A DNA stretch of 64,000 nucleotides from Leptolyngbya sp. FACHB-8. GTDB taxonomy: Bacteria; Cyanobacteriota; Cyanobacteriia; Elainellales; Elainellaceae. Made by a program: the position numbers and the translations under genes. This document shows, in pieces, positions 57,905-62,861 of the stretch. The number at the start of each line of letters is the position of its first letter. Within the stretch, counting starts at the first letter, position 1. The DNA is taken from NCBI RefSeq assembly GCF_014695575.1, contig NZ_JACJOO010000095.1:62001-126000 (forward strand). Reading direction: 5' to 3'. A model generated the notes under the pieces. The model was not told the origin of the DNA, did not search any database, and saw only the letters and a program-made list of their open reading frames with translations.

Positions 57905-58339
57905 ATGAGAACTCAAATCTTGGCGGTTGCCCTTCTCTCTACAGGGCTGTTAATGACTGCTCAATCTGCTCGCGCCGAAGACCCCGCGGACTTGCAACAG
58001 TTATTGGAGACAGGGGCCTGTGCATCTTGCGACCTCAGTGGTGCTAATTTAAGTGGTACTCATTTGATTGGGGCCGATTTGCGGAATGCCAACCTACGGG
58101 GTGCAGATCTGTCGGATGCGAATTTAGAAGGAGCCGATCTTACGGGGGCAAACCTGCAAGGGGCTACGATGACAGGGACATTCGCCAGCAATGCGGTCTT
58201 CAATCGAGCAAACTTGGCTAATGTCGATATGACCGATGCGGTCGCTTATAACGCTCAGACCGAAGGTACTATCCTGACTAACGTCAATCTGGCCGGAGCC
58301 GAGGTTGGTGGTAGTGGTATCAGCATCGGTAGCGACTGA
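57905..58339 (+). CDS. Exported pentapeptide-repeat protein
   Basis: A 144-residue protein with a Sec-type signal peptide (residues 1-24, ending SARA, cleavage about ARAED). The mature part has a CASCDLSGANLSG start and then consecutive pentapeptide repeats (ADLRNANLRGADLSDANLEG and ADLTGANLQGATM) to about residue 130. The two cysteines close to the N terminus could form a disulfide. It is likely periplasmic or in the thylakoid lumen; the function is unknown. GGAGG lies 7 bases before the ATG within a structured leader. Two hairpins follow the stop. Confidence 0.88.
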   Translation: MRTQILAVALLSTGLLMTAQSARAEDPADLQQLLETGACASCDLSGANLSGTHLIGADLRNANLRGADLSDANLEGADLTGANLQGATMTGTFASNAVFNRANLANVDMTDAVAYNAQTEGTILTNVNLAGAEVGGSGISIGSD

Positions 58340-60104: not shown

Positions 60105-60917
60105 ATGCCTAAAACGGTTCTGATTACAGGAGCTTCCTCGGGAATTGGATTAGCGACAGCTAAGTTGTTTCAGCAAAACGGCTGGAATGTGGCGGCGACC
60201 ATGCGATCGCCTGACAAAGCCACCAACTTAGCTGTCCTGGAGCGGGTGGTCTGCCTGCCCCTGGACGTCACCCAACCGGAGTCTGTGGAAGGGGCGATCG
60301 CCACTGCCCTGGAGAAATTTCAGCACATTGATGTGCTCATCAATAATGCTGGATACGGTCTATTGGGGCCATTTGAGGCCACATCTCCAGAACAAATTCA
60401 ACGGCAATTCGACACGAATGTATTTGGGTTGATGAATGTGACACGGGCGGTATTACCCCACTGGCGCGATCGCCAGTCAGGTCTACTGATCAATGTCTCG
60501 TCTATTGGTGGTCGTCTTGCCTTTCCGCTCTATAGCCTTTACCACGGCACCAAGTGGGCTGTAGAAGGCTTCTCGGAAGCGTTGCAGTACGAGTTGGCAC
60601 CGTTCAACATACGCGTCAAGCTAATTGAGCCTGGACCAATCAAAACGGATTTTTACGATCGCTCAGCAGACATCGCTCATCAGCCGGGGCTATCCGCCTA
60701 TGACCAATTTGTCGAACGGGTCATGCCCAACCTGCGTCGTTCAGGGGAGCAGGGATCACTGCCAGAGGTTACGGCTCGGGTAATTTATCGGGCTGCAACG
60801 GATGGGAGCGATCGCCTCCGCTATCCTGCTGGGGGTAATGCGGGGGCTCTCCTACTGACACGCTTGTTGCCGGATAGTTTACGTCGGTGGCTTGTGCGTC
60901 AAATTATGACGAGGTAG
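60105..60917 (+). CDS. Short-chain dehydrogenase/reductase between leuC and leuD
   Basis: An oxidoreductase of 270 residues. The cofactor motif is LITGASSGIGLATA, the loop ATMRSPDK follows strand 2, NNAGYGLLGPFE is the NNAG region, and the catalytic set is Ser in NVSSIGGRLA and YHGTK. The end, with a hydrophobic RLLPDSLRRWLVRQIM helix, suggests membrane association. It is like the retinol-dehydrogenase/SDR group sometimes annotated as YbbO-like. It starts 14 bases after leuC; its role in leucine synthesis is not evident. Confidence 0.88.
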   Translation: MPKTVLITGASSGIGLATAKLFQQNGWNVAATMRSPDKATNLAVLERVVCLPLDVTQPESVEGAIATALEKFQHIDVLINNAGYGLLGPFEATSPEQIQRQFDTNVFGLMNVTRAVLPHWRDRQSGLLINVSSIGGRLAFPLYSLYHGTKWAVEGFSEALQYELAPFNIRVKLIEPGPIKTDFYDRSADIAHQPGLSAYDQFVERVMPNLRRSGEQGSLPEVTARVIYRAATDGSDRLRYPAGGNAGALLLTRLLPDSLRRWLVRQIMTR

Positions 60918-61112
60918 GGGCAGGATTTGATCGGGTGAGGGGCGATCGCGATTGCGCTTCCTGCGCTCTTTATCTGCTGATTCCCCTTCCTGGTCAGCTT
61001 GCTGGGTGTATTGCCCTGCTTGCTGCTGTCTCGACTCGACTATCTCAAAGCACTCCGTAAAAATCCCGACTTCATCAAAAAAACTAAACTTTTCCTCCTT
61101 ACAAGTAAGACC

Positions 61113-62198
61113 ATGAGTGCGTCTAGTGAAGCATCTGTACCGACGGTCAAAGGTAAAGAACCTTGGCTTGCGGTTCTTTTGTCCCATGCTCTACCAGGGA
61201 TTGGACAGTTCTATGCTGGAGCCAGGGTACGGGGTCTTGTGTTTTTACTGGCCTATATACTTTCGATAGGAATTTTCCTCTGGGCTTTAATCAGTGATGC
61301 TGGCAATGGTTTGACGATTTTAGTTGGGATAGGGGCCGCCCTTCTTCTATGGTTCGTTAACCTGTTTGACGCCCACGCCAGCGCAAAACGGGCCAATGCA
61401 ACTGCATTCGAACAACAACGAAAAGGTGTTAAAGATCCCTGGCTAGGAGTCTTTCTATCGAACCTGATTCCTGGCTTAGGACACCTTTATTTCCGCAAGA
61501 TTCTAATTGGGTTGGGATTATTTATTCTGTCGATCATCATTATTGCTATCTCTGAATTGGTCAATCCAGTCCTGACTCCTTTATGGTTTGCGGTCATTGC
61601 ATACATTACTTATACGGCTGCTCCTGCTCGTCGAGAACGTTCTAAAAAAACAATTGCGTTGATTTGTTTGTTTGTAGTTTTGACAGGTCTATTACCTTTT
61701 GCCTCGGCCTCTAAACTTCAAAGAAATATTGCAGAAGCACGTTATATCCCATCGGAAGCGATGCTTCCAACGTTGGCTGTTAACGATCGCCTAGTTGTTG
61801 AAAAAGTTACCTATCAAACTCAATCTCCACAACGCGGTGATGTTGTCGTTTTCTCACCGCCAGAAGGGCTCAAGCAAGCCAATCCTGCTGTAACGGATGA
61901 CCTCATTAAACGGATTGTTGGCTTGCCCCGTGAGCAGGTTCAAGTGAAAGACCAAAAAGTCTATATCAATGGCCAGCCCCTTGAAGAGAATTATATTCCT
62001 GCTGACTATGCACCAACCTATGAATGGGGGCCAGAAGTTGTTCCAGAAAATTCTTATTTTGTTTTAGGTGACAATCGCAATAACAGCTACGATAGTCACT
62101 TTTGGGGATATGTTCCGCGCGAGAACATTATAGGTCGAGCCAGCAAAATTTTCTGGCCTTTACATCGATCACGGAGCCTAAAATCCAGTTTGGAATAA
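61113..62198 (+). CDS. Signal-peptidase-I-like protein lacking the catalytic serine
   Basis: A 361-residue membrane protein. The C-terminal half (about 205-361) has the SPase I fold: box B with RYIPSEAMLPTLAVNDRL, box D with DDLIKRIVGLPRE (general-base Lys266 in place), and VLGDNRNNSYDSHFWG (box E). In active enzymes box B reads SxSM; here it is Ser214-Glu-Ala216-Met, Ala216 being encoded by GCG at 61758-61760, so the nucleophile is absent. The N-terminal half holds two copies of a membrane module, KEPWLAVLLSHALPGIGQFY (15-34) and KDPWLGVFLSNLIPGLGHLY (107-126), each followed by a hydrophobic helix. I recall other cyanobacterial proteins with the SEAM variant but cannot confirm it here. Start ATG 61113; it sits between an SDR gene and leuD. 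Confidence 0.88.
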   Translation: MSASSEASVPTVKGKEPWLAVLLSHALPGIGQFYAGARVRGLVFLLAYILSIGIFLWALISDAGNGLTILVGIGAALLLWFVNLFDAHASAKRANATAFEQQRKGVKDPWLGVFLSNLIPGLGHLYFRKILIGLGLFILSIIIIAISELVNPVLTPLWFAVIAYITYTAAPARRERSKKTIALICLFVVLTGLLPFASASKLQRNIAEARYIPSEAMLPTLAVNDRLVVEKVTYQTQSPQRGDVVVFSPPEGLKQANPAVTDDLIKRIVGLPREQVQVKDQKVYINGQPLEENYIPADYAPTYEWGPEVVPENSYFVLGDNRNNSYDSHFWGYVPRENIIGRASKIFWPLHRSRSLKSSLE

Positions 62199-62261
62199 TG
62201 CCAAATTCGGGCTGGATATTCAGAGATTTCATCTTATTTTGTTGAATTGGAGAATTGAACG

Positions 62262-62861
62262 ATGAGCCAAGTTGTTACCGTATCTGGTCGTGCCATTCCT
62301 TTAGTTGGAGACGATATCGACACCGATCGCATCATTCCTGCTCGCTTTCTCAAATGCGTGACGTTTGACGGCCTGGGTGAGCATGCTTTTGAAGACGATC
62401 GCGCCCAGCTTCAGGGCGAACACCCCTTCGATCAACCCCAATATCAGGGAGCCGAACTTCTGGTTGTGAATCGTAACTTCGGCTGTGGTTCGTCCCGGGA
62501 GCACGCTCCTCAAGCGATCGCCAAATGGGGCATCAAAGCCCTAATCGGCGAAAGTTTCGCTGAAATTTTCTTTGGCAACTGCGTAGCGATGGGAATTCCC
62601 TGCGTTACTGCCAATGCTGAAGGGGTGAAAGCATTACAGGGGGCGATCGCTGCCAATCCCCAAGCACCCGTCACTTTAAACCTGGACACTATGCAAGCCA
62701 CCTGTGGCGACCTCACCGTCGCAGTAGAAATGGGTGCTGGCCCCCGGCAAATGTTCCTATCTGGAAGCTGGGATGCTACCGGCCAACTGATAGCCCAGGG
62801 CGAACAAATTAAGGCCACCGCAGCACACCTACCCTACATGACCTGGAAGGCAACTGCCTAA
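62262..62861 (+). CDS. leuD: 3-isopropylmalate dehydratase small subunit
   Basis: Partner of LeuC. The 199-residue product has the swivel-domain pattern [28 protein letters not shown] and [13 protein letters not shown], all conserved. It lies 63 bases after the signal-peptidase-like gene and on the same strand as leuC, so the four genes may be one unit. A terminator-like hairpin follows at 62937. Confidence 0.96.

Follow-up and report, generated by a model that had tools for sequence, protein, structure and literature searches.

A signal peptidase I-like protein lacking the catalytic serine in Leptolyngbya sp. FACHB-8, a probable member of a retained and recurrently inactivated cyanobacterial group

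A gene contained in a stretch of 64,000 nucleotides from Leptolyngbya sp. FACHB-8, referred to as the window, encodes a protein related to type I signal peptidases (SPase I), which lacks the catalytic nucleophile and is very probably a member of a cyanobacterial group retained in spite of recurrent inactivation. The original prediction had pointed to a box B reading PSEAM and to the GCG codon at 61758-61760. Both were found in the open reading frame starting at the ATG at 61113, where box B is YIPSEAMLPTL and the alanine is residue 216, at the position of Ser90 of the E. coli enzyme. According to the available part of the source, Ser90 is the nucleophile of E. coli SPase I and Lys145 its base (PMC12984324). 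The prediction of a catalytically dead SPase-like protein is well supported, on sequence grounds, by homologues, controls and conservation; repeated inactivation at different catalytic residues was absent from it. Dead SPase homologues are already known, namely SpsA and SipA.

The protein matches the Peptidase_S26 domain (PF10502, E 2.8e-44, 151.5 bits against a curated cut-off of 22.9) and the signal peptidase I model TIGR02227 (E 2.6e-41, 141.2 bits against a cut-off of 47). Since both scores are far above the cut-offs, an automatic pipeline will probably annotate the protein as an active peptidase. In a phmmer comparison with solved structures, PSEAM is aligned to PSGSM and LIKR to YIKR of E. 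coli SPase I. The serine which active SPases carry in box B (PSxSM) is replaced by Ala216, while the general-base lysine of box D (Lys266, in LIKRIVGLP) and the GDNRNNSYDS box are unaltered. The predicted integrity of lysine and GDNR box holds for the window protein, but the lysine is not conserved in all of its group, being lost in 7 of 36 rows. The features of the gene and of its surroundings are reported in Table 1.

Table 1. Features of the SPase I-like gene and of its neighbours, in window coordinates
Feature	Position	Strand	Basis
SPase I-like pseudoenzyme gene, 361 aa (ATG 61113, stop TAA 62196-62198)	61113..62198	+	ORF and domain matches, homologues
First PWL/PGxGQxY membrane module, residues 14-94	61152..61394	+	AF2 model; sub-cut-off DUF5683/TM2 matches
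Second, homologous membrane module, residues 106-170	61428..61622	+	hhalign, AF2; sub-cut-off DUF6677 match
Presumed anchor helix into the peptidase domain, residues 178-205	61644..61727	+	AF2 model
Peptidase_S26 (SPase I) fold domain, residues 206-349	61728..62159	+	Domain match, phmmer, AF2 model, structure comparison
Ser214 (TCG), equivalent of E. coli Ser88 (oxyanion hole), kept	61752..61754	+	Alignment
Ala216 (GCG), at the nucleophile position (E. coli Ser90)	61758..61760	+	Alignment
Lys266 (AAA), equivalent of the general base Lys145, kept; absent from 7/36 group-A rows	61908..61910	+	Alignment
Ser325 (AGC), equivalent of Ser278 in the GDNRNNS box, kept	62085..62087	+	Alignment
SDR gene, upstream neighbour	60105-60917		Domain match
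leuD, downstream neighbour; leuC lies upstream of leuD	62262-62861		leu names by reading of the sequence

An AlphaFold2 model of the full protein, based on 22 sequences (mean pLDDT 86, pTM 0.73), is laid out as two modules, followed by helix 178-205 and by the S26 domain. Each module consists of a short helix, a PGxG turn (PGIGQ in the first) and two long helices, presumed to be transmembrane. The KxPWLxVxLS motif marks the two modules at residues 15 and 107, and an hhalign comparison of their profiles shows them to be homologous (probability 99.2% over 70 columns). They score below the curated cut-offs for TM2 (17.6 vs 27.9 bits), DUF5683 (19.3 vs 26.7) and DUF6677 (19.7 vs 24.3). When modelled alone they reach a pLDDT of 94, and a single Foldseek search of these models against the PDB gave nothing better than E 2.3. 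The predicted duplication is thus real, but it is shared by catalytically intact homologues and for this reason is not a hallmark of the dead form. One locus (L282, genome G290) contains a 144-aa ORF with a strong match to the N-terminal modules (E 1.5e-50), whereas S26 is missing from the sequence fetched there; the gene may be truncated, or the module may stand alone.

Profile and pattern searches yielded 59 distinct proteins with the architecture of the window protein, two of them (L073 and L102) incomplete; proteins of identical sequence entered the count a single time even when encoded at several loci, and L085 (non-cyanobacterial) and L086 (short match) were not used. A tree was built leaving out columns 214-216, 266 and 326, with column 325 kept in, and including only six of the short SPases. 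In this tree 23 rows form group B (support 100/100), and the other 36, among them the window protein, are referred to as group A. Since the rooting is arbitrary and the six short SPases are placed within the A rows, group A is a grade and not a proven clade. The residues preceding box B are RYIP in group A and different ones in group B.

As the first profile (A1) had been built from three dead proteins, the search was repeated with a profile limited to the N-terminal part (A3), blind to the state of the S26 domain. In 388 genomes it detected 84 places, distributed in 80 genomes, of which 83 were read (30 already read and 53 newly fetched), the last being a contig-end fragment in G367. An S26 domain was present in 50 of the 53 new loci: 48 are intact group-B members, one is truncated (L271) and one represents a new group-A type (L241, PSGGM). 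The truncated locus, together with L282, L283 and L284, whose fetched sequences lack an S26 domain, was kept out of the intact count. Group B, so enlarged, comprises 72 rows (FastTree support 1.0), 71 of them complete, and L241, the sole new row outside it, sits on a long branch nearest to the A rows. Group A was found by this search in 16 of the 388 genomes; by tally, 14 of the 16 are altered and 10 are dyad-less. Such a patchy gene is dispensable for the phylum.

Group B shares with the window protein both the order of domains and the sequence of the modules, but differs in that the equivalents of Ser88, Ser90, Lys145 and Ser278 are all kept in each of its 71 complete rows. At least one of these four residues is changed in 32 of the 36 group-A rows (33 of 37 when L241 is added), and either the Ser or the Lys of the dyad is missing in 23 of 36 (24 of 37 with L241, from the N-terminal-only search). 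The residues found in group A are Ala in 15 rows, Gly in 3, Thr in 2 and Ser in 16 at the Ser90 position; Gln in 3, Ser in 2, Phe in 1, Glu in 1 and Lys in 29 at the Lys145 position; Ala in 7, Thr in 2, Gln in 1 and Ser in 26 at the Ser88 position; Ala in 2, Arg in 1 and Ser in 32, with one gap, at the Ser278 position. Beyond the 23 dyad-less rows, seven are changed, of the four residues, at Ser88 alone, and two at Ser278 alone. All four are kept in L040 (which has Ser in place of the box-B Pro), L046, L077 and L095. The near-invariant GDN tripeptide is altered to GDH in L241, to GDS in L094 and to GDD in L063.

As a control, 66 distinct short SPases were chosen from S26 matches, with every one of 33 group-A genomes represented at least once. 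All 66 carry Ser90, Lys145 and Ser278, and the Ser88 position is occupied by Ser in 62 and by Thr in 4. Short cyanobacterial SPases differ from the window protein in having the dyad (66 of the 66 sampled), in being shorter and in having no duplicated module.

In E. coli, the change of Ser88 to Ala severely slows cleavage, but there are Gram-positive SPases with a Gly at this position. In SpsB, according to the part of the report available, a water molecule lies at the position of the Ser88 hydroxyl (PMC4704075). The change of Ser88 to Ala may not necessarily abolish activity, and because of this uncertainty 24 of 37 is taken as the firm count of dyad losses and 33 of 37 as the wider one; the rows with Thr at the Ser90 position (L047 and L063) were counted as dead by assumption.

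The expectation that SEAM variants occur in other cyanobacteria was borne out, since PSEAM is also found in L005 and L039; elsewhere PSGAM, PSSGM, PSGTM and others are observed. A sequencing error at 61758 and the presence of serine in the orthologues had been named as findings which would overturn the prediction. Neither overturns it: Ser is missing in 20 of 36 distinct group-A rows, with varied codons and replacements, for which reason the error is rejected.

Several lines of evidence indicate that the losses were many. A topology in which the 20 Ser90-less rows form a single clade is rejected by the AU test (p-AU 4.9e-42), and a minimum of 10 changes at Ser90 and 7 at Lys145 is required, counts which cannot separate loss from regain. 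Sister rows may carry different losses, as L093, without the Ser, and L069, without the Lys. Within one genus, L071 differs from the near-identical, intact L095 (N-terminal dS 0) by the change of the general base from Lys to Ser (AAA to AGC), a loss which is very recent. The changes were also compared over 28 columns which do not vary among the tree's 29 intact proteins. In group A the four catalytic columns show 14, 9, 7 and 3 parsimony changes against a median of 1 for the other 24, and account for 33 of the 84 changes, a figure matched by 68 of 20475 four-column sets; the most changed non-catalytic columns are V246 (9), H329 (8) and G273 (7). As for the number of lesions per protein, four of the 36 have none, 26 have one and six have two, while independent shuffles, which ignore relatedness and in which Ser88 to Ala or Gln was counted as disabling, give on average 9.2 lesion-free proteins (P 0.0017) and 17.1 single-lesion proteins (P 0.002). 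Since a single disabling change appears to suffice, and its nature varies from member to member, selection for non-cleavage, and not free decay, may be inferred.

The main alternative is that constraint was simply relaxed: a redundant SPase paralogue would have lost its activity by drift in many lineages, the other LepB proteins being sufficient, and its members would now be disappearing. This is judged unlikely, although several observations agree with it. At least one intact short SPase is present in each of the 33 group-A genomes, the distribution is patchy, and the Lys to Ser change between L095 and L071 is recent. In L083 (Lyngbya aestuarii) and L104 the box B or GDNR motifs are visibly decayed in an open frame, so that some lineages may be losing the S26 domain altogether. 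One in-frame TAA is present in L097/L073 (G512, a Chamaesiphon MAG), where the frame ends before the GDN box, by decay or by assembly error. Finally, the S26 dN/dS of four close pairs ranges from 0.5 to 1.4 (L095/L077 0.50, L095/L071 0.66, L071/L077 0.69, L070/L101 1.4; 0.24 in a fifth pair, L042/L103), values based on few changes.

Against drift stands, besides the excess of proteins with exactly one lesion, the conservation of the rest of the domain. Among the 41 columns conserved in at least 95% of the 66 short-SPase controls, positions 216 and 266 are kept in 13% and 70% of the 23 dyad-less rows, but 30 of the 39 others are kept in at least 91%, including I212, P213, M217, P219, L221, D225, F247, R267, D320, R322 and D327 (91-100%). 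The nine less-kept columns are 346 (45%), 207 (65%), 347 (68%), 301 (70%), 323 (73%), 317 (77%), 246 and 273 (78% each) and 265 (83%), the first three being less kept than Lys266 itself. Outside the dyad, conservation is high, not perfect. The frame extends over at least 345 aa in 34 of 36 group-A rows, L073 and L102 being shorter. Over long divergence the S26 dN/dS (Nei-Gojobori) is near 0.1 (L072/L073 0.10, L044/L045 0.11, L036/L037 0.12), for pairs in which dS, being above 1, is near saturation. Further values are 0.08 for L037/L040 (L040 has an intact dyad), 0.24 for L093/L069 and 0.29 for L037/L039. Diverged group-A pairs are thus under purifying selection; in group B five pairs give 0.04 to 0.39 and one is saturated. 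In view of the column test and the controls, generic decay is unlikely to be the sole cause, while drift is kept as a rival.

As to what a retained, non-cutting protein might do, a role in binding signal peptides or pre-proteins without cleaving them is favoured, with a probability somewhat short of even. The original prediction had named the binding of signal peptides, and a chaperone or sensor, as putative roles. As in active SPases, a client would dock in the S26 cleft, either through the c-region of its signal peptide or, in the case of a membrane client, through its N-terminus; with Ser or Lys missing, the client would be held or shielded instead of cleaved. The duplicated membrane module would fix the complex at a membrane site, and cutting would be left to the separate, active LepB proteins. 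In a more specific form, put forward tentatively, the module-fused SPase could have been converted many times, by different single lesions, to a non-cutting binder of signal peptides, under convergent selection for inactivity, its members serving, at the plasma or thylakoid membrane, to retain signal peptides or to hand them over. Several points weigh against a binder. The gene is patchy, and four group-A rows have all four catalytic residues; L083 and L104 are decayed, and L073 carries an in-frame stop. Frequent changes also affect some non-catalytic columns, and S26 dN/dS reaches 0.5-1.4 in four close pairs. Besides the gene itself, no gene is common to more than five of the 33 clustered group-A neighbourhoods, so that no conserved neighbour names a client. 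In addition, a cleft-blocking mutant of SipA still works (see below); even where the cleft is kept, the protein may work through another surface, which tempers the argument drawn from cleft conservation.

Other roles are less probable than binding. A dead SPase might act as a non-catalytic subunit, pairing with or regulating an active LepB and altering its choice of substrate or its location. At least two further S26 matches occur in each of the 33 group-A genomes searched, and the S26 domain of the window protein is 66% identical to that of the short SPase L001 of its own genome; yet no short SPase gene stood out beside the group-A gene in the 33 clustered neighbourhoods, and this role is considered improbable. 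Still less probable is that the peptidase domain is only a scaffold, the function residing in the duplicated, TM2-like membrane modules. The module motifs PW and PGxGQxYxG are indeed invariant or near-invariant across the aligned rows, in intact and dead groups alike, but the S26 domain has a lower dN/dS than the N-terminal part (0.08-0.29 vs 0.16-0.46) in each of the six group-A pairs whose S26 dS exceeds 0.3. Persisting activity through an alternative nucleophile, for example Ser214 (the Ser88 position) with Lys266, would fit the presence of Ser or Thr at 214 in 19 and of Lys in 16 of the 20 Ser90-less rows, but is very improbable, as E. coli S90A is inactive despite the presence of Ser88, L005, L006, L070 and L094 have neither Ser90 nor Lys, and Ser214 is changed to Ala in members which keep Ser216.

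In bacteria SPase I is essential. The inactive homologues found in print, SpsA and SipA, are isolated cases of unclear mechanism. In the portions available of the respective reports, SipA of Streptococcus pyogenes (LepA; PDB 4n31/4k8w) is described as having an SPase I fold without the Ser-Lys dyad (Asp48 and Gly85 at these positions) and with the peptide-binding cleft retained. It is needed for pilus polymerisation, peptidase activity was not detected, and the cleft-blocking mutant V99R still worked (PMC4049620). The window protein resembles SipA in having the fold without a complete dyad. By structure comparison its model is equally close to SipA 4n31 (Z 15.9, 133 residues, 3.3 A) and to E. 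coli LepB 1t7d (Z 15.1, 136 residues, 2.2 A), a tie. SipA differs in being a Gram-positive protein of pilus assembly with Asp and Gly as replacements, in not being shown as part of a recurrently inactivated group, and in that duplicated membrane modules are not part of its solved domain. Nor does the window gene lie in a pilus operon, its neighbours being an SDR gene and leuD, then leuC.

SpsA of Staphylococcus aureus is a dispensable SPase I homologue in which two catalytic residues are missing, and coexists with the active SpsB; the text available states neither a role nor a fusion to membrane modules (PMC12445088). Like the window protein, it is a catalytically incomplete homologue beside an active SPase. 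In having an SPase I fold, a missing catalytic residue and an intact SPase in the same genome, the window protein would be classed with pseudo-SPases of the SipA/SpsA type. The S26 family also includes the cyanobacterial LepB1 and LepB2 and the plant Plsp/TPP enzymes; in Synechocystis, LepB1/LepB2 correspond to sll0716 and slr1377, according to the part of the source available (PMC3210150). The available section of PMC1560137 contains nothing on bacterial dead SPases, and no dead cyanobacterial SPases are reported among the matches listed in a search of full-text, CC-licensed PMC papers, a collection distinct from subscription journals and preprints. The many separate inactivations, the intact sisters of the same architecture and the very recent loss within one genus provide natural replicates for a non-cutting SPase fold, and might have a bearing on protein sorting between plasma membrane and thylakoid in cyanobacteria.

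The original prediction had called for a comparison with the paralogues of the same genome. Two other S26 genes were found there, L001 (PSESM) and L002 (PSDSM), both with Ser and Lys. A genome of the same genus (G035) contains a homologue, L006, identical to L074 ('Filamentous cyanobacterium LEGE 07170'). The distribution of the gene is sporadic, matches at E 1e-97 being found in one of eight genomes of genus g84 and in one of seven of g70. Searches of a plasmid and of a phage collection gave 11 and 17 matching records, none of which covers 80% of the protein. The close proteins L036-L040 and L090 are found in genomes of different families, and this, together with the lack of shared neighbours, suggests gain and loss, or transfer.

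The local context was evaluated by comparing leuD with its flanks (about 1.5 kb) at 30 loci within the family. An SDR match is found upstream of leuD in L203, L204, L209 and L212, as well as in the window genome (L202), and of all these loci only L202 shows the SPase-like gene. The content of the SDR-leuD slot varies, as seen at 60105-62261 of the window and at 575-1366 of L203: in the window genome it contains the SPase-like gene, in L203 it is occupied by an antisense ORF of 263 aa, Uma2-like by eye. Just upstream of leuC, at 57905-58339 of the window, a small protein is encoded, in which pentapeptide-like repeats can be recognized by eye after an apparent export signal.
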